Below are positions 8,232-19,681 of a stretch of 30,113 nucleotides of DNA, in pieces. The position numbers and the translations under genes are program-made. Below the pieces are notes generated by a model that was not told where the DNA came from, ran no database searches, and worked only from the letters and a program-made list of their open reading frames with translations. How positions within the stretch are numbered: the first letter of the stretch is position 1; each line of letters begins with the position of its first letter. This DNA is from a bacterium HR19. GTDB lineage: Bacteria; Calescibacteriota; Calescibacteriia; Calescibacteriales; Calescibacteriaceae. The stretch covers positions 1 to 30,113 of the forward strand of contig BEHV01000018.1 of the NCBI GenBank assembly GCA_002898315.1, read 5' to 3'.

Positions 8232-8375
8232 ATGCGTCATAAAGATTATGTATTATCGGTCATACGTGATTATAAATTTGAACGAGATAAGAACATACCG
8301 ATCAGAGATAAGAGTCAGCAGGTGATAGCATATCTTTCCTCTGTGAAAAAACCAAAGAGCATGCGGAGATTTTGA
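8232..8375 (+). CDS. Short ORF of unknown function overlapping the GNAT start
   Basis: A 47-codon frame from ATG 8232 to TGA 8375 that begins MRHKDYVLSVIRDYKFERDK and continues through PIRDKSQQVIAYL. The amphipathic, charged sequence reads like a real protein N-terminus rather than random AT-rich DNA, but I do not recognise it. Its stop codon overlaps the TTG used as the first start codon of the GNAT frame. It may be a coupled small gene, or the remains of a gene whose frame was broken. The rest of the 8109-8371 gap shows no other feature. Confidence 0.3.
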   Translation: MRHKDYVLSVIRDYKFERDKNIPIRDKSQQVIAYLSSVKKPKSMRRF

Positions 8376-8875
8376 CCGAGTGGAGAAATAAGCACATGTA
8401 TTCTTTTTTTACCTGGTTTCATGCTACCGTAGATGGAACATTAAAATGGATAGAAAGCATAATGGTTCGTGAGGATAGAATACTTTTTTTAATTCAAAAT
8501 ATTGAAGGGATACCTATTGGGCATATTGGGCTTACTAACTTTGATTTTGAAAAAAATACATGTGAGATTGACTCTGTGTTGAGGGGTGTAGATGAACTTC
8601 CCGGGGTTATGACTTATGCGTTAGAATCTTTAATTGATTGGGTTTTCAATTGCCTTAAAATAGATTCTGTGTATTTAAGAGTATTTGAAGATAATCATAA
8701 AGCAATATCTCTCTACAAAAGATGTGGGTTTATATTATGGAAAAGAGTAGGAGCGAGAAAGATTGTAGAAAAAGATTTTATAAGATGGATAGAAGCAGAA
8801 GAAAATCTGGGTGTTGTTGAAAATTATGAAAGATATATTGTGTATTTCATAAAAGAGCAGTCGCAGTTCAGATGA
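8372..8875 (+). CDS. GNAT-family N-acetyltransferase (start uncertain)
   Basis: The 167-residue frame resembles acetyl-CoA-dependent acetyltransferases of sugar-modification clusters. LTEWRNKHMYSFF is the usual 'WRN' N-terminal motif, ILFLIQNIEGIPIGHIGLTN gives the two central strands, ESLIDWVF a helix, and LRVFEDNHKAISLYKRCGF the C-terminal acetyl-CoA segment. The substrate is probably an amino sugar by family and by the nearby aminotransferase and epimerase, but that is inference. The first usable start is TTG 8372. The same frame upstream is open to 8312 and its codons (EKTKEHAEI just before LTEWRN) look like the missing start of the domain, yet contain no ATG, GTG or TTG. The true start may be non-standard, or the gene 5' end may be damaged. 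A weak stem AAAAGAGC 8851-8858 / GCTCTTTT 8893-8900 lies at the 3' end. Confidence 0.65.
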   Translation: MTEWRNKHMYSFFTWFHATVDGTLKWIESIMVREDRILFLIQNIEGIPIGHIGLTNFDFEKNTCEIDSVLRGVDELPGVMTYALESLIDWVFNCLKIDSVYLRVFEDNHKAISLYKRCGFILWKRVGARKIVEKDFIRWIEAEENLGVVENYERYIVYFIKEQSQFR

Positions 8876-8968: not shown

Positions 8969-10549
8969 ATGTTGGAGAAACTAAAACAAAAAGCAGATTT
9001 TGCACCTTCATCATGTGGGATATATTTATTCCTCAAAGATGGGAAACCTATATATATTGGTAAATCAAAGAATATAAAGGAACGACTCAAAGCATATTTT
9101 AATTTTTTAGATTCTCGCGAAACGGTTCCGAAAATCCTTCAAGAAGCAGACGACCTCAGGTGGTTCGTAACCTCAACAGAAGAAGACGCGCTTTTTTTTG
9201 AGCAAAAACTTATAAGAGAAAACCTTCCAAAATACAATATAAAACTCAAAGACCAAAGGGGACTGAAATATATAAGGGTAGACTTATCTTATGAGTTTCC
9301 ATCTCTATCTTTAAGGAGGTATCCTCAAAAGAAAGACGGTGCGGTTTATTTTGGTCCTTTTTCTTCTTATGACGCGAGAGAAATTTTCAATGTCTTGAAG
9401 ATGTTCGGAATAAGAACTTGTACAGAAAGAAAGTTTTCCGAATTCAAAAAAAGGAATAGACCATGCCTTGACGGACAGATAGGAGTTTGCTCCGCACCGT
9501 GTGTTGGTATGATAAAAAGGAGTTCTTACATGAAAGAGATTCACAAAGCTATGGATTTTCTGAAAGGAAAATTTTCATATGTGTTAAGACAGCTTGAAGA
9601 GAGGATGTGGGAGGAATCCGAGAGAGAAAACTTTGAGATTGCAGCAAGAATAAGAGACAGAATTTCTGTCATCAGAAATTTCTTTGAGACAAAAAGGTTG
9701 ATTTTTTCTGATATGAGGGGGGGAGATTATTTAAGCTACGATGTAGTTGGGGGAAAGCTGGGGATTTTTGTTTTGAAGGTTCGTGAGGGTAGATTTTTCG
9801 GAGGTTATGGGGGAGCTTTTGAATATGGGGGACAAGATATATTAGATATGGCTTTGGGGCTTTTTTATGATAACTCTGGTTCAGAAGGCGAGCTTATTAC
9901 AGACCTTGCTGAACGAGATTTTAAATTAGGTGGTATTTTGGTGAGACCACCGAGAGAAGACGAAAATGAGGTTATGCTTATTGCCAAGAAGAACGCGGTT
10001 GAGCAGATACTCCAGACATCAAATATTCTTCTTGAAAAGTTCAGAATTCTTGAGGAGTTGAGAGATTTTCTTCTACTTAGAGATACGCCGAGAAGGATAG
10101 AAGTTTTTGATTTTTCAAATTTTGGTGGTAAGAATCTTGTTGGAGTGAAGGTTCATTTTGAAGATGGGGAGTTTGTTCCTTCTCGTATTCGTCTTTACAA
10201 TGTGAGTGATGAGGGATACGATGACATTTTAGCACTCAAAAATGTTCTTTCAAGGAGGGTGAGAGATTATTTTGAGGGTAAAGATTTGCCGTTTCCTGAC
10301 CTTATTTTTATAGATGGAGGTAAGGGGCATTGGAGTGTAGCAAGAGAAGTTTTTTCTTCCTTTGGTTTGAGAGCTAATTTTGCCTGTATAAAGAAAGAGG
10401 AAAGGAACACGAGGGATATAACTTTGATTTTTGAGAGGGAGGAGTTGAAGCCGAAGGGTAAGCTTCTTTCTTTTATTTTAAGTTTGAGGGATTCTGCGCA
10501 TTTTAGAGCCAAACGTTTTGCGGTCTCAAAAGCAACAAAAATAAAATAG
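8969..10549 (+). CDS. uvrC: Excinuclease ABC subunit C lacking the C-terminal HhH region
   Basis: UvrC makes both incisions in nucleotide excision repair when recruited by UvrB. The N-terminal GIY-YIG nuclease that cuts 3' of the lesion is at about 12-95 (GIYLF at 17-21, PIYIGKS at 27-33). A UVR motif for UvrB contact lies near 205-240 (ENFEIAARIRDRISVI). The RNase H-like domain that makes the 5' cut follows, with D381 (EVFDFSNF), D449 (FIDGGKGHW) and H511 (RDSAHFRA) at the expected catalytic triad positions. The protein is 526 residues, shorter than the usual 590-620, and stops 15 residues after the catalytic His. The C-terminal tandem helix-hairpin-helix DNA-binding part is therefore absent. 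No HhH-like frame follows in the next 340 bases. No Shine-Dalgarno is seen before the ATG. Confidence 0.92.
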   Translation: MLEKLKQKADFAPSSCGIYLFLKDGKPIYIGKSKNIKERLKAYFNFLDSRETVPKILQEADDLRWFVTSTEEDALFFEQKLIRENLPKYNIKLKDQRGLKYIRVDLSYEFPSLSLRRYPQKKDGAVYFGPFSSYDAREIFNVLKMFGIRTCTERKFSEFKKRNRPCLDGQIGVCSAPCVGMIKRSSYMKEIHKAMDFLKGKFSYVLRQLEERMWEESERENFEIAARIRDRISVIRNFFETKRLIFSDMRGGDYLSYDVVGGKLGIFVLKVREGRFFGGYGGAFEYGGQDILDMALGLFYDNSGSEGELITDLAERDFKLGGILVRPPREDENEVMLIAKKNAVEQILQTSNILLEKFRILEELRDFLLLRDTPRRIEVFDFSNFGGKNLVGVKVHFEDGEFVPSRIRLYNVSDEGYDDILALKNVLSRRVRDYFEGKDLPFPDLIFIDGGKGHWSVAREVFSSFGLRANFACIKKEERNTRDITLIFEREELKPKGKLLSFILSLRDSAHFRAKRFAVSKATKIK

Positions 10550-10889: not shown

Positions 10890-11930
10890 ATGGAAAAAAT
10901 AAAGGTTTTAATAGCTGGAATAGGAGGTGCATCATTAGGGACAGAGATTTTCAAATGTTTGAAACTTGCAGGAGTATACGAAATTTATGGTTGCGATATA
11001 TCTAATTATGCTTTTGGGCATTACATGCAGGGTTTTAAAGAGACATTTGTTGTTCAGAAAGAAAATTATATTGAACAGGTTCTTGAATTATGTAGAAAAA
11101 AAAGCATAGAAGTTATAGTACCAGGAGCTGAGGAGACTACTGTAATTTTGGGATTAAACAGAGGTATATTTGAGCGAGAAGGAATAAAGGTTGCTTGCAA
11201 CTCTGAAAATGTTATAAAAATCTGTTCAAGTAAACACTCTCTTTTCTCAAAACTTTCGGAACTAGGCATAAAATGTCCAAAAACATTGCTTGTAGAAAAC
11301 TTAGATAGGGATATAAGTGCTCTTGATGATTTCCCATTCCCCTGCGTTATAAAACCATCTGAAGGAAGTGGGGGAAGCGTTTTTACCTTTCTCGCCAAAA
11401 ATAAGAAAGAAGCTATGCTTTTCATAGAATACCTGTTAAGTAATTCTATAAGGCCCGTTGTCCAAGAATATATCCCGGAATCTGAAGGAGAATTTACTAT
11501 TGGTGTTTTATCAGGAAAGGACAAAAAAATAATAGGTTCAATTGTGATGAAAAGATTATATCCATCTAAGCTTTCCGTTAAATTAAAGACAGATTACGGA
11601 ATAATATCTTCTGGATATTCTCAGGGCTACTTTGCTGATTTTGAAGATGTAAGAGAACAGGCTGAAAAAATCTCTCTTTCTTTGATGAGCGAAGGACCAA
11701 TGAATATACAAGGGAGATTAAAAGATGGATTTTTTCTACCTTTTGAGATAAATCCTCGCTTTTCAGCATCAGTATATGCGAGAGCTCTTGCTGGATTCAA
11801 TGAAGTTCACTTATTTATAGAGCATCTTTACGGGAAAATATCCGGGCGATATGATTTTGATGTGAAGAAGGGATTATTTCTGAGGAGCTTTACCGAAGTT
11901 TTTGTAGGAGAAGATAAAATTAAGGAATGA
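10890..11930 (+). CDS. ATP-grasp domain protein (carboxylate-amine ligase type)
   Basis: The 346-residue product has a Rossmann-like N-terminal pre-ATP-grasp domain starting KVLIAGIGGASLGTEIF, then an ATP-grasp fold resembling the carbamoyl-phosphate synthase large subunit and PylC-like ligases. The ATP lysine segment is FPCVIKPSEGSGGSVF (about 151-166), the hinge is VVQEYIPESEGEF, and the metal-binding end is PFEINPRFSASVYARAL. Such enzymes activate a carboxylate as acyl phosphate and join it to an amine, thiol or other nucleophile; the substrate cannot be read from the sequence. The start ATG has GAGAGGCG upstream. The stop is followed after a single base by the start of the phosphatase-epimerase gene, so the two are surely cotranscribed and probably act on the same compound. 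Confidence 0.8.
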   Translation: MEKIKVLIAGIGGASLGTEIFKCLKLAGVYEIYGCDISNYAFGHYMQGFKETFVVQKENYIEQVLELCRKKSIEVIVPGAEETTVILGLNRGIFEREGIKVACNSENVIKICSSKHSLFSKLSELGIKCPKTLLVENLDRDISALDDFPFPCVIKPSEGSGGSVFTFLAKNKKEAMLFIEYLLSNSIRPVVQEYIPESEGEFTIGVLSGKDKKIIGSIVMKRLYPSKLSVKLKTDYGIISSGYSQGYFADFEDVREQAEKISLSLMSEGPMNIQGRLKDGFFLPFEINPRFSASVYARALAGFNEVHLFIEHLYGKISGRYDFDVKKGLFLRSFTEVFVGEDKIKE

Positions 11931-11931
11931 A

Positions 11932-13179
11932 ATGATAAGGTGGATAAAAAATTATATTGGGACAGCTTCTGCGAAAGATATAAAAAGAATTCAAAAAGAG
12001 CATCCTGATATATTTATTCTTGATGTAAGGGTTCTACTTGATGGTTCAGGGAACTCACCGAAAGTAATTCGTGAAAAAATAGATGAAGGTTTAAAGGCCC
12101 TGCAAAGTGGGAAAAAAATTGTTGTTGTCTGCGATCAGGGAGTATCAAGAAGTAATTCTATTGCTGCAGGAATTATTAGTTCTTTTGAAAGAATATCTTT
12201 TGACGAAGCTCTGAAAATAGTTTATAAAGAAACAAAAGAAACAGAAATTAAGATTGAAGTCATTGAATCGGTAAGGGAAGCGGTTGAAGGTAAGAAGACA
12301 GAAAAAACTTCGTCATTTGTAAGATTAGCTATAACTGGTGCTAATGGCTTTATAGGAAAAAGATTGGTTCAGAAACTCAGAGAGAATAGCAAAATAGATT
12401 TCTTCCCTATAACCAGGAATGATTTAGACCTGATGAAAGATAAAATATTACTTGATATATTCATAAAAGAAAACCAGATAAACACCTTGCTTCATCTTGC
12501 AAACCCGAAAAACTACACGAGTAACTCCTCTCTTGGCGAAACTCTTACTATGCTTAAAAATGTTCTTGATGTCTGTTCAACAAATAATGTGTATCTAATA
12601 TATCCAAGCGGTTGGGTTATTTTTTCTGGATATAAAGGGGAAGAGCTTTCTGTAGATGAGAATTTCGCTCCAAAACCAAAAGATACATATAGCTATACCA
12701 AATTTCTGGCAGAACAGCTTGTAACGCATTGGTATTCAGATATACAGTACTGTATTTTGCGGATATGTCCCGTATATGGTGAAGGGAGCGATAAACCAAA
12801 ATTTATATGGAACTTTATTGAATACGCTTCTGAAAACAAAGATATAGGTGTTCACAGATATAAAAACGGATTTCCAAAATTAGAATTAATTTACGTAGAT
12901 GATGTATGCGAAGCAATTATAAAAGTTATAGAAAAAAAACCGAAAGGTGTGATTAATATAGGTTCAGGAAAAGCAGTATATGTGAAAGAAGTCGCAGAAA
13001 AAATAATAAAATTGATGAATTCAAAAAGCAAAATATACTACATAGATGTTGATGATATAACTTCAAGCATAACTCTTGATATATCAAAAGCAAAAAAAAT
13101 TTTGGGATGGGAACCCAAAATAAAAATAGAAGAAGGATTAAAGAAAATAATTGAAAGCATAAAATCAAAGAAAAATTGA
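11932..13179 (+). CDS. Fusion: dual-specificity-phosphatase-like domain plus NAD-dependent sugar epimerase
   Basis: The 415-residue product has two domains. Residues 1-120 look like a dual-specificity (tyrosine-type) phosphatase: a conserved Asp-containing loop near 31-37 and the P-loop CDQGVSR at 67-73, which fits C-x5-R and continues SNS. The His normally before the Cys is Val. Residues 130-415 are an extended short-chain dehydrogenase of the sugar epimerase/dehydratase type: TGANGFIG (135-142) binds NAD, YPSGWVIFSG (224-233) supplies the Ser, and the catalytic Tyr-Lys pair is Y253/K257 in TYSYTKFLAEQL. The C-terminal half has ILGWEPKIKIEEGLKKI, typical of NDP-sugar epimerases. The gene follows the ATP-grasp gene by one base. 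The phosphatase may act on a sugar phosphate or regulate a neighbour; the sequence does not decide. Confidence 0.8.
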   Translation: MIRWIKNYIGTASAKDIKRIQKEHPDIFILDVRVLLDGSGNSPKVIREKIDEGLKALQSGKKIVVVCDQGVSRSNSIAAGIISSFERISFDEALKIVYKETKETEIKIEVIESVREAVEGKKTEKTSSFVRLAITGANGFIGKRLVQKLRENSKIDFFPITRNDLDLMKDKILLDIFIKENQINTLLHLANPKNYTSNSSLGETLTMLKNVLDVCSTNNVYLIYPSGWVIFSGYKGEELSVDENFAPKPKDTYSYTKFLAEQLVTHWYSDIQYCILRICPVYGEGSDKPKFIWNFIEYASENKDIGVHRYKNGFPKLELIYVDDVCEAIIKVIEKKPKGVINIGSGKAVYVKEVAEKIIKLMNSKSKIYYIDVDDITSSITLDISKAKKILGWEPKIKIEEGLKKIIESIKSKKN

Positions 13180-13259
13180 GGAACTTCCGAAGGATTTTAA
13201 TTTTTAACTTGGAATTTTGAGATTTTCAAAAGTAAAAAATATGTGTATAAGGGAGGTAT

Positions 13260-14057
13260 ATGAGAATGAAATCTAAAATAAAGAAGGAGAAAATCGGCAA
13301 GTTTATAATGTCCCATCCGAAAAATCTGACAAAAAATGATATTGAATTTTCCGAAGGCATGCAAGAATATTTCAAAAACAGCCTGGGAACAGTGATGGAT
13401 AAGCTCAGGAATTTTCCAAAGTATGTTCCTCGCCAATCCCTCGCTCTTTTCCTTGCAAAACATGAGATTTTTAAGAAAATTTTAAATGTGCATGGACACA
13501 TAATAGAAGCTGGAGTTTTCCTGGGAGGTGGTCTTATGACATGGGCTCAACTCAGTGCTATTTATGAACCTTACAATCATACAAGAAGAATAATAGGTTT
13601 TGATACTTTCTCTGGTTTCCCGGATATATCTGAGAAAGATATAGGTTCTGCAGACTATCCTCAGAGGAAAAAAGGAGGACTATCAGTCAAAGGTATAGAG
13701 GAAGACCTAAAAGAATGCATAAGGTTGTATGATCTAAACAGACCGCTGGGTCATATTCCTCGCATTGAGATTATCAAGGGAGATGCCTGTAAAACTATCC
13801 CGGAATATGTTGATAAAAATAAACATCTTGTTGTTGCTCTGCTTTATCTTGATTTTGACCTTTATGAACCAACAAAAGTTGCTCTTGAACACTTCTTACC
13901 GAGAATGCCAAAAGGATCAGTAATAGGGTTTGATGAATTAAATCAGCCGTATTGGCCGGGAGAGACATTAGCAGTCCTTGAAGAGATTGGAATAAGAAAT
14001 CTTAAAATTCAACGCTTTGAATTCTGCCCTCAAATATCTTTTGCAGTCCTTGAATGA
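13260..14057 (+). CDS. TylF/MycF-type O-methyltransferase
   Basis: The 265-residue product belongs to the class of SAM- and metal-dependent methyltransferases that includes macrocin O-methyltransferase TylF, which methylates sugar hydroxyls. Evidence is the SAM motif HGHIIEAGVFLGGGLMTW (about 78-95), IIGFDTFSGFPDIS (111-124), the metal/acid segment YLDFDLYEPTKVALEHFLPR near residue 200, and GSVIGFDEL after it. The first 50 residues are a basic, less typical extension. GGGAGG just upstream (about 13250-13256) supports the ATG. It lies 80 bases after the phosphatase-epimerase on the same strand, so it may be the last gene of that transcription unit. The likely job is methylation of a deoxy- or amino sugar on a surface glycan, which is an inference from family and context. 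It converges with the DegT aminotransferase, with 8 bases between. Confidence 0.85.
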   Translation: MRMKSKIKKEKIGKFIMSHPKNLTKNDIEFSEGMQEYFKNSLGTVMDKLRNFPKYVPRQSLALFLAKHEIFKKILNVHGHIIEAGVFLGGGLMTWAQLSAIYEPYNHTRRIIGFDTFSGFPDISEKDIGSADYPQRKKGGLSVKGIEEDLKECIRLYDLNRPLGHIPRIEIIKGDACKTIPEYVDKNKHLVVALLYLDFDLYEPTKVALEHFLPRMPKGSVIGFDELNQPYWPGETLAVLEEIGIRNLKIQRFEFCPQISFAVLE

Positions 14058-14065
14058 ACACAATT

Positions 14066-15277
14066 TCAAATTTTTTTTCTCTCTCTTCTCAAATCTTCTA
14101 CTACATTCAAGAGTGTTTGGCATACATGCTTTACATCTTCTTTATTCAAACAAAGGGCAGAAGGGAGATTGATACCGAATTTGCTCAACTGATAACTTAC
14201 TCTGTTTTTCTTTCTTCCAATCTCTGCTGTCGGGAGATCACGAAAAGATGGCTGTGAACTCAAAGGATAAAAAAAAGGACGAGATGCTATTCCATACTCC
14301 GCCAATCTCTCTATCAAAATTTCCTTATCAACACCATCAATTATTGCTGTTACCATCCAGTATGAGTTTTTAACATAGGGTAAAGATGGGTTTAACTTTA
14401 TTCCATCAACTCCGGACAAAAATTCTTCGTACCATCTGAATATTTTTATTTTTTTCTCAATTATTTTTTCTGCCCTTTCAAGTTGGGCAATTCCAAGTGC
14501 TGCCTGAAGGTCGCTCATCATATACTTATATCCAATCTCATCGCACCAGAAAATTTTTTCCTTTGATTTTCCGTGGTCTCTTAACTTTTTTGCTTTTTCG
14601 TAGATTTTCTCAGAATCTGTAAGAAGCATACCACCTTCACCTGTTGTTATTGTTTTTGTTCCGTGAAAGCTGAAAACGCTTATATCTCCAAAACTTCCCG
14701 CCTTCTTACCTTTGTACTCTGAACCGAATGCCTCTGCTGCATCTTCAATAACAAATATTCCATGCTTTTTTGCTATGTTCAGGATTTTATCCATATCAGG
14801 CATACCACCATAAAGGTCAACAACAATTATTGCCTTTGTTCTTGGAGTTATATTTTCCTCAACAGATTCAGGAGATATACACCATGTATCGGGAGATATA
14901 TCTGCAAATATGGGAGTTGCCCCCACATATATTACCGGTTCAGCTGTTGCCACCCATGTTATATCAGGTACAATCACTTCATCCCCTGGTCCTATCCCAA
15001 GCGATAGCAATGCAAGATGAATAGCATTTGTGCATGATGAAGTTGATAAGGAGTATTTTCTTCCGATGTATTTTGAAAATTTTTCTTCAAATTCTTTTTG
15101 ATACCTGTATGCTCCTCCGTACCAAGCATTCTTTACAGCGGAGCAAACTTTCTTTACTTCATAAGAGGTTATCCACGGACCAGCGATTGGTATAAATTTA
15201 ATATTACTTTTTTTACTTACGAATTTTTCTTTGGCTTTTCTTTTCCTTTTCATTTCCTTTTTTAGCTTCATATTCAT
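14066..15277 (-). CDS. DegT/DnrJ/EryC1/StrS-family sugar aminotransferase
   Basis: These PLP enzymes put an amino group on keto-sugar nucleotides, as in perosamine or bacillosamine synthesis. In the 403-residue product the PLP lysine is K208 (FSFHGTKTITTGEGG). The PLP-ring Asp is D179 (VIEDAAEAFGSEY). STSSCTNAIHLALLSLGIGP (78-97) binds the phosphate, and DEIGYKYMMSDLQAALG is the family's later block. The N-terminus carries about 25 very basic residues (KLKKEMKRKRKAKEKF) before the normal start of the fold, which is unusual; Met3 and Met9 are alternative starts in the same tail. No Shine-Dalgarno is clear; TAGATT lies 6 bases upstream. By context it would supply the amino sugar that the GNAT protein could acetylate. 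Confidence 0.88.
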   Translation of the reverse strand: MNMKLKKEMKRKRKAKEKFVSKKSNIKFIPIAGPWITSYEVKKVCSAVKNAWYGGAYRYQKEFEEKFSKYIGRKYSLSTSSCTNAIHLALLSLGIGPGDEVIVPDITWVATAEPVIYVGATPIFADISPDTWCISPESVEENITPRTKAIIVVDLYGGMPDMDKILNIAKKHGIFVIEDAAEAFGSEYKGKKAGSFGDISVFSFHGTKTITTGEGGMLLTDSEKIYEKAKKLRDHGKSKEKIFWCDEIGYKYMMSDLQAALGIAQLERAEKIIEKKIKIFRWYEEFLSGVDGIKLNPSLPYVKNSYWMVTAIIDGVDKEILIERLAEYGIASRPFFYPLSSQPSFRDLPTAEIGRKKNRVSYQLSKFGINLPSALCLNKEDVKHVCQTLLNVVEDLRRERKKI

Positions 15278-17914: not shown

Positions 17915-19681
17915 TTATTTTCTTCTGTTTTTTCCTTTCCTTATATGTCTTCTTCGGAGTAGGTAGTAGATATGTGGCAGAGCAAAAATAACTGCCTGTG
18001 GTAGAGCAGATACAGTGTTGCAACCATAACCTTTGGATTCCGTTTTATTTTCAAACTTTAAGCTCGTTTCAAAGTTGGAGTATATCTTTGGAGCGGGAGT
18101 GCTAATACCCGTCACCAGTGCAGGGTATTTTATTTTCCAATCACCAATACCCAATTGCCCATAATTATTATCCCCCCAGCACCACAAAGAACCATCAGAT
18201 TTTACAGCGCAGGTATGTCTTGCACCGGCTGAAATTTTTTCAGAGCCGGAATACTGCACACATGTGGCTTCGTCTGTCTGACCGTTACAGTTATTATCTA
18301 TGCCATCGCCACACAATTCAAAAGAGCCGGGATTAACAAGTGGATTATTATCATTGCAATCCAGAGGTTTTGCAACAGATGTAAAACCGGCAGATACTGT
18401 GTTTGCACATTGTGATACAGAGCTTGTCCATGTATCATTATCTGAATCTTGGAAAATCCATATTTCAACTCTTCCATCACAGTCGTTATCTATTGAATCT
18501 GAACAGTTCAGTGAAGCACCTGGATAAATAGAGGAGTTTGAATCGTTGCAGTCGCCAGATATTGTTGCTCTGTAAGGAAAAGACGGAGAACAAAGGCACT
18601 TTGAAGAGCTTGTTCCATATCCATCATTATCGCCATCGTAGTAGAAGATTATGCAACCGGCAGAATTTTCTGGGTCTGTGATACCATCGCAGTTATCATC
18701 TATTCCATTACATACCTCAATCCTTGCAGGATTAACTGCCGGGGTGCTATCATTGCAGTCAAGAGGTTTAGAAGTTGATGTAAAACCAGAGGGCATAGTG
18801 TTCGCACACTGGGATATAGATGTAGTCCAAGTATCACTGTCTTGGTCTTGGAAGAACCACTTCTCAACATTGCCATCGCAGTCGTTATCTTTAGAGTTAT
18901 TGCAGTTCAGAGGAGCTCCTGGATAAATTGATGCATTCCCTTCATTACAATCTCCGCCTTTATCTGCATATCCTTTCGGTTTTGAGCAAGCTACAAGCGT
19001 TATTTCTCCTCCGTATCCGTCACCATCTCTATCCTCGTAAAATATTTGTTTTTCACAGTAATCTTTCTGGCTTGGTTCTGAACCAGTGAGCAGCTCTGCT
19101 AAATTAGGTATTCCGTCTTCGTCTGTATCTACAAGTTCAAATTCCACAAAAGGTGTTATATCTATTTCGTTTGCTGTGGGTGGAACAGGAAATTTTCCTG
19201 ACGACTTTATTATAGTTATACTTCTGGCGTAGAATGTCATTTCAACCTGCCACTCACCATCAGAGCGAGGCAACCTAAAATATGCGTAGGTTAAGCCTCC
19301 TTTTTCTTGAAATTCCAAGTTCCCCCAGTATTCCGTTGAACTCTGCTTTTGTGATATATCAGATTTTGGGAGAAGTGGAGACCTTCCGGTAAGTATCCTT
19401 CCTGTAAGGAGTTTTACTCTATATTTTCCGTTCAGGTCAATTTGCTGATTTTTTAAATTTTTCAGGTCAGCTTGATGAGGTATCTGATAAAAAACAGTAA
19501 TTGTTTCCTCTCCTTGATATTCATAGCTTTCTTTGTGTTCTTGTGAGGTTTTCACTTCCTGTTTATTTCTTTTACATCCGTATGAAGGAAGAAGTATCAG
19601 CATAAAAGTAAGGGAAAATAGGGAAAAGGAGAGTTGCCCTGCCAAGGAAAAGCTTCTACACGATTTCCTTTCCTCCCTCAT
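17915..19681 (-). CDS. MopE-repeat lipoprotein with one RCC1 unit and a MYXO-CTERM-like tail
   Basis: A 588-residue secreted protein. The first 36 residues are a signal peptide with a possible lipobox (LLPSYGC, C36). Residues 40-190 form a domain I do not recognise. VDTDEDGIPNLAELLTGSEP near 195 is a thrombospondin-type-3-like Ca site. Then come repeated MopE units: a DxDxDGYG-type strand, GDCND...SIYPGA, and N-x-x-DNDCDG. They form two longer tandem blocks, each ending in 'KPLDCND' and spaced about 150 residues apart. A single RCC1 unit follows (SAGARHTCAVKSDGSLWCWG), normally found in sevens. The last 40 residues are Gly-Cys-Asn, about 17 hydrophobic residues and then RRRHIRKGKNRRK, the tripartite form of MYXO-CTERM sorting signals. 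Probable place: outer surface, calcium or copper binding. No Shine-Dalgarno stands out. Confidence 0.75.
   Translation of the reverse strand: MREERKSCRSFSLAGQLSFSLFSLTFMLILLPSYGCKRNKQEVKTSQEHKESYEYQGEETITVFYQIPHQADLKNLKNQQIDLNGKYRVKLLTGRILTGRSPLLPKSDISQKQSSTEYWGNLEFQEKGGLTYAYFRLPRSDGEWQVEMTFYARSITIIKSSGKFPVPPTANEIDITPFVEFELVDTDEDGIPNLAELLTGSEPSQKDYCEKQIFYEDRDGDGYGGEITLVACSKPKGYADKGGDCNEGNASIYPGAPLNCNNSKDNDCDGNVEKWFFQDQDSDTWTTSISQCANTMPSGFTSTSKPLDCNDSTPAVNPARIEVCNGIDDNCDGITDPENSAGCIIFYYDGDNDGYGTSSSKCLCSPSFPYRATISGDCNDSNSSIYPGASLNCSDSIDNDCDGRVEIWIFQDSDNDTWTSSVSQCANTVSAGFTSVAKPLDCNDNNPLVNPGSFELCGDGIDNNCNGQTDEATCVQYSGSEKISAGARHTCAVKSDGSLWCWGDNNYGQLGIGDWKIKYPALVTGISTPAPKIYSNFETSLKFENKTESKGYGCNTVSALPQAVIFALPHIYYLLRRRHIRKGKNRRK
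18845..18916 (-). repeat. Inverted copy of 30042-30113 (68 of 72 bases)
   Basis: Read on the minus strand, this segment of the first MopE gene matches 30042-30113 of the second with 4 mismatches in 72 bases. The last 33 bases (18845-18877 against 30081-30113) are identical. The match may continue beyond the window edge. The copies are inverted relative to each other and about 11.2 kb apart. Confidence 0.92.

Follow-up and report, generated by a model that had tools for sequence, protein, structure and literature searches.

The window analysed here (the whole stretch of DNA, 30,113 nucleotides) carries a four-gene block in which the gene for an ATP-grasp ligase stands directly before a gene that fuses a likely PTP/DSP-type phosphatase domain to an extended SDR domain. 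The block recurs in another genus of this family. We also report that ATP-grasp relatives outside the phylum often adjoin phosphatase genes of unrelated types, often together with an SDR gene, an observation that is new here. We propose, with about equal expectation of being right or wrong, that the block forms one cassette dedicated to a single unusual sugar of a surface glycan and that its phosphatase domain would act as a small-molecule phosphomonoesterase.

Gene content and layout of the block

The block and the domains of the fusion are as follows.

10890-11930, plus strand: ATP-grasp ligase of the PRK12767 'carbamoyl phosphate synthase-like' family (346 aa; NCBIfam, Pfam)
11932-13179, plus strand: phosphatase–SDR fusion gene (415 aa; Pfam)
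11932-12306, plus strand: probable N-terminal PTP/DSP-like phosphatase domain, residues 1-125 (sub-threshold Pfam DSPc match, conserved residues, fold matches)
12307-13179, plus strand: extended SDR domain, NDP-sugar epimerase/reductase (Pfam Epimerase/RmlD, motifs, nearest structures)
13260-14057, plus strand: TylF/MycF-type sugar O-methyltransferase (265 aa; Pfam TylF, E 1.3e-10)
14066-15277, minus strand: DegT/DnrJ/EryC1 sugar aminotransferase, LegC/PseC-like (Pfam, E 3e-114)

The ATP-grasp gene ends with a TGA stop at 11928-11930 and the fusion begins with an ATG at 11932, which leaves the one-base gap that the initial annotation had described. Within the 415-residue fusion, the phosphatase-like part covers residues 1 to ~120 and the SDR part residues ~130-415. 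The TylF protein scores 41.4 bits, above the Pfam gathering cut-off of 23 (PF05711), and the DegT protein matches both the LegC-family and the PseC models of NCBIfam below cut-off. Being on the minus strand, the DegT gene is convergent with the block and not co-transcribed with it.

In the source genome (G000) the block stands alone among housekeeping genes (uvrC, tsaD). The initial annotation had listed a sugar O-methyltransferase behind the fusion and an aminotransferase and a GNAT protein nearby. The first two are present and are kept in the second genus. The GNAT acetyltransferase gene is real (8372-8875, plus strand, upstream of uvrC), but it is separated from the block by uvrC, is absent from the examined part of the corresponding cluster in the second genus (G004) and is outside the conserved set. 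The product of the intervening gene (8969-10549, plus strand) is UvrC-like and 526 aa long; Pfam identified GIY-YIG, UVR and RNase H domains in it but reported no C-terminal helix-hairpin-helix domain. Farther along the window, 17915-19681 (minus strand) encodes a 588-aa protein; Pfam assigned RCC1 repeats to it, together with four putative metal-binding motifs of the MopE type.

The phosphatase–SDR fusion protein

A six-frame translation of the whole window contains a single C..G.SR[ST] motif, CDQGVSRS (C67-S74), in the N-terminal domain of the fusion. The C-x5-R P-loop and the Ser/Thr that follows it are present (C67, R73, S74) and are kept in G004. The His that precedes the catalytic Cys in PTP/DSP-type enzymes (HCx5R) is absent, with V66 in its place in the window and Cys in G004; the initial annotation had read both the motif and the Val correctly. 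D37, 30 residues ahead of C67 and likewise present in both fusions, is a candidate general acid. Both known fusions share all four residues (C67, R73, S74 and D37), although their overall identity is about 48%.

The Pfam DSPc profile (PF00782) matches fusion residues 55-104 with E 1.6e-5, at 25.2 bits against a curated cut-off of 33.5, and covers profile positions 68-117 only. A single-sequence AlphaFold2 model of residues 1-125 has a pLDDT of 61, with the ends poorly predicted. When this weak model was submitted to Foldseek, the 50 best PDB matches were of PTP/DSP type, with E values of 2e-3 or weaker, and a structural aligner returned a best Z of 5.9 to a PTEN-like domain, which is not decisive by the aligner's guideline. 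In the comparison of residues 1-125 with DSP folds that the initial annotation had suggested, the top matches are of that type, but the E values above 1e-3, the modest Z and the low pLDDT keep the fold short of firm. Because motif, profile and fold matches combine, the N-terminus is likely a PTP/DSP-type domain, as judged from the sequence and a predicted model.

The assignment of the C-terminal domain rests on Pfam Epimerase (PF01370) at residues 134-344 (E 5e-28) and on the SDR motifs TGANGFIG (135-142), S226 and Y253xxxK257. Among solved structures, those of UDP-glucose and UDP-GlcNAc 4-epimerases come closest to it, and the nearest NCBIfam models all score below their cut-offs.

The ATP-grasp enzyme

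The ATP-grasp protein matches NCBIfam NF009402 (PRK12767) over its full length at 288 bits (cut-off 218), and Pfam recognizes ATP-grasp_3, ATPgrasp_Ter and PylC-like_N. The nearest solved structure is 2pn1. In an alignment of 11 sequences, K115, K155, E286, N288 and R290 are invariant. Relatives were found in 34 of 386 genomes in a survey across the domain and in 12 of 282 in another, confined to a single large phylum; none was confirmed in viral contigs.

Conservation in the phylum and searches for further fusions

Five genomes of the phylum were sampled, including G000 and, from another genus of the same family, G004. The latter carries the same fusion (418 aa, 46% identity to that of the window). 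Its ATP-grasp gene, with 52% identity to that of the window, lies directly before the fusion with a 4-base overlap, a TylF copy (70% identical) lies directly behind it, and a DegT copy (63% identical) follows one gene beyond TylF. The in-frame joining of a phosphatase-like domain to an extended SDR, as first annotated, is therefore not a frameshift or sequencing artefact, nor due to chance, since two divergent copies exist. At the level of sequence, these copies suggest that both domains are under selection. Searches of the other three genomes (G001-G003), whose assemblies are 84-86% complete, recovered neither the phosphatase domain nor the TylF gene.

A search for the same architecture, as the initial annotation had suggested, thus yielded one homologue, and in it the ATP-grasp neighbour is kept. 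A domain profile run over 290, 24 and 395 genomes (~700) revealed no third fusion; five other weak matches lie in open frames of only 142-268 aa, too short to hold an SDR as well. Close relatives of the fusion in a genome contig collection matched the SDR part only, and the match that was examined (L009) is without the phosphatase domain. In viral contigs the fusion query likewise matched through its SDR part only, and the phosphatase domain alone had no match there. The same domain query returned only standalone haloarchaeal DSPs from a plasmid collection.

A polysaccharide cluster in the second genus

The G004 block sits inside a CDP-sugar/ABC-export polysaccharide cluster. Upstream of it are genes for an ABC-2 permease, an ATPase with a Wzt C-terminal domain, a glucose-1-phosphate cytidylyltransferase (above cut-off), a CDP-glucose 4,6-dehydratase-like SDR, a C-methyltransferase and RmlC, and the cluster also holds a rhamnosyl O-methyltransferase-like gene. 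In G000, genes related to those for the cytidylyltransferase, RmlC and the C-methyltransferase (46-66% identity) lie close together on contig C7, and G003 has relatives of all three without the block. Because these relatives are on C7 in G000 and occur without the block in G003, the block would appear to behave as a cassette added onto a CDP-deoxysugar core. The presence of relatives of the CDP-sugar genes in G003 without the cassette indicates that the link to CDP-sugars is not obligatory.

Recurrent pairing of ATP-grasp and phosphatase genes outside the phylum

We compared 29 loci of ATP-grasp relatives outside the phylum with 40 control DegT loci from the survey genomes. The loci of the window, G004, Smac51 and Sinorhizobium formed the starting set and were left out of the 29, and a phosphatase was scored if it lay on the same strand and within 2.5 kb. 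Such a gene was present at 12 of 29 ATP-grasp loci (one of the 12, a PHP match in L063, is weak) vs 1 of 40 controls (Fisher 5.5e-5), counts that come from modest surveys with one type of control gene, in which some loci are related and the HMM seeds were partly drawn from the test loci. An SDR and a phosphatase occurred together at 9/29 loci vs 0/40 controls, and a seed-independent metallophosphoesterase motif at 7/29 vs 0/40 (Fisher 0.0014). The SDR alone gave no clear separation (15/29 vs 15/40), and 17 of the 29 loci had no phosphatase nearby.

Metallophosphoesterase genes adjoin the ATP-grasp gene or its SDR in G250, G229, G260, G288, G119 and others, and in Smac51 such a gene overlaps the ATP-grasp gene. 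HAD genes lie beside ATP-grasp relatives in G337 and G054, and PHP genes do so in G635 and in Sinorhizobium, where PHP, ATP-grasp and oxidoreductase genes are adjacent. Pfam confirmed the metallophosphoesterase, HAD and PHP identities where tested. Counting the PTP-type domain, related ATP-grasp genes have phosphatase partners of four unrelated folds, which suggests a single slot, that of small-molecule phosphomonoester hydrolysis. As several of the metallophosphoesterase loci carry NeuB-type (nonulosonate) genes, their chemistry may differ from that of the CDP-sugar setting. Five loci (L061, L062, L068, L073 and L026) bring together genes for a metallophosphoesterase, an SDR and a PRK12767 ATP-grasp enzyme, and four of the five also have a NeuB-type gene no more than ~7 kb away; these clusters are a possible undescribed nonulosonate or surface-sugar module.

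Proposed pathway and alternative explanations

From what can be read in the genomes themselves (the fusion, its conserved catalytic residues, the occurrence of the block in two genera and the repeated pairing with phosphatases), we infer the substrates, the order of steps and the amide of the following route. The DegT aminotransferase would aminate an NDP-sugar with a keto group, probably a CDP-deoxysugar. The ATP-grasp enzyme would convert a carboxylic acid, either an amino acid or a hydroxy acid, into its acyl phosphate and join it to the sugar amine, giving an amide; that its acceptor would be the amino sugar made by DegT is suggested by analogy with Clostridioides difficile (see below). 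The SDR domain may epimerise or reduce the sugar, TylF would O-methylate it, and the fused PTP/DSP domain would dephosphorylate an intermediate or the acid to be attached, filling the slot held by a metallophosphoesterase, PHP or HAD protein beside related ATP-grasp genes. The convergent orientation of DegT in the window, the loss of the His before the catalytic Cys and the 17 loci with no phosphatase nearby weigh against this reading.

Alternatively, the SDR or a BY-kinase target could be under the control of the fused domain, acting as a protein tyrosine phosphatase that would regulate polysaccharide synthesis (cf. Wzc/Wzb), and phosphotyrosine control had been the second option of the initial annotation. 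The fold matches of the predicted model are of PTP/DSP type, and bacterial polysaccharide clusters often include a PTP and BY-kinase pair. However, neither the window block nor the examined part of the G004 cluster contains a BY-kinase gene, the domain is fused to an enzyme of a single-pathway cassette, and the metallophosphoesterase, PHP or HAD protein in the equivalent slot suggests small-molecule work. Since pairing with unrelated phosphatase types favours a metabolic phosphatase, we consider tyrosine-phosphatase control quite unlikely; that option gained no support, whereas its companion, a small sugar pathway combining dephosphorylation, an SDR step and ligation, is supported. We also view as unlikely a catalytically weak or dead domain that binds or scaffolds a phosphorylated ligand or the ATP-grasp partner. 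The Val or Cys in place of His, the DSPc score under its cut-off and the shortness of the domain with its poorly modelled ends would all be in line with such a role, but the preservation of C67, R73, S74 and D37 in both sequences argues against it, and LMW-PTPs are active without a His before the Cys.

We regard it as very unlikely that the four glycan genes adjoin one another by accident, with the ATP-grasp enzyme and the fusion in no common pathway. The position of the cassette among uvrC and tsaD and its apparent absence from three of the five phylum genomes (incomplete assemblies) fit an accident, but G004, from a different genus, has the same order of ATP-grasp, fusion, TylF and DegT, with identities of 46-70%, and the first two genes are spaced by one base in the window or overlap by 4 bases in G004.

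The single-cassette reading can be extended, tentatively, to an undescribed surface-sugar module of several phyla, in which a PRK12767 ATP-grasp enzyme, an SDR and an interchangeable phosphomonoesterase would produce an acyl or aminoacyl group and attach it via a phosphorylated intermediate. The phosphomonoesterase of such a module might be, on a view we hold as doubtful as the module itself, a metallophosphoesterase, PHP or HAD protein or, in this phylum, the SDR-fused PTP-type domain. If the proposals are true, a PTP-type domain has been recruited as the metabolic phosphatase of a sugar pathway, and a single reaction slot is marked by the unrelated phosphatases that adjoin ATP-grasp genes of PRK12767. 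They would also give a testable role to PRK12767, a named family without an assigned reaction in the sources searched, and a way into the structure of unknown surface sugars.

Comparison with known systems

The open-access papers searched yielded nothing pertinent to a PTP–SDR fusion or to PRK12767, which fits the initial annotation's description of the pathway as undescribed. Two points qualify that description: the ATP-grasp protein belongs to a known NCBIfam family, and a CarB-like ATP-grasp gene of C. difficile has already been tied to a peptidylamido-sugar (PMC5207246). The window enzyme is a member of PRK12767/NF009402 (2pn1) and differs here by its tie to the PTP–SDR fusion.

In C. difficile type B flagellin modification, the CarB-like ATP-grasp gene is required for the peptidylamido-sugar, and ATP-grasp mutants lose this terminal sugar (PMC5207246). 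The locus (CDR20291_0244-0247) resembles the window in combining the ATP-grasp gene with one for an FdtB-like sugar aminotransferase (PMC5207246). It differs in that its ATP-grasp domain belongs to another Pfam family, PF13535, its neighbours encode a FemAB-like protein and an ornithine cyclodeaminase, and the paper mentions no phosphatase or epimerase (PMC5207246). The CA_C2195 loci bring together an ATP-grasp ligase, an NDP-sugar epimerase, an aminosugar acetyltransferase and a HAD phosphatase fusion in one locus; they centre on a peptidase-like protein, and the passages covered report no PTP/DSP domain or PTP–SDR fusion (PMC4000134).

On Sinorhizobium pSymB (CP140937) the arrangement is window-like, with a PHP gene overlapping the ATP-grasp gene and an NAD(P)-dependent oxidoreductase (SDR) gene next; it differs in the PHP fold, in having separate genes, in its place beside sulfation genes and in an ATP-grasp protein only 28% identical. 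The PHP and ATP-grasp genes there lie directly behind a cysD-nodQ-cysQ sulfation set (L027, 7581-12993). The glycan loci of G250, G229, G288, G119 and Smac51 share related ATP-grasp, SDR and phosphatase genes with the window, usually adjacent or overlapping, but there the phosphatase has a different fold and its own gene, and several of them include NeuB.
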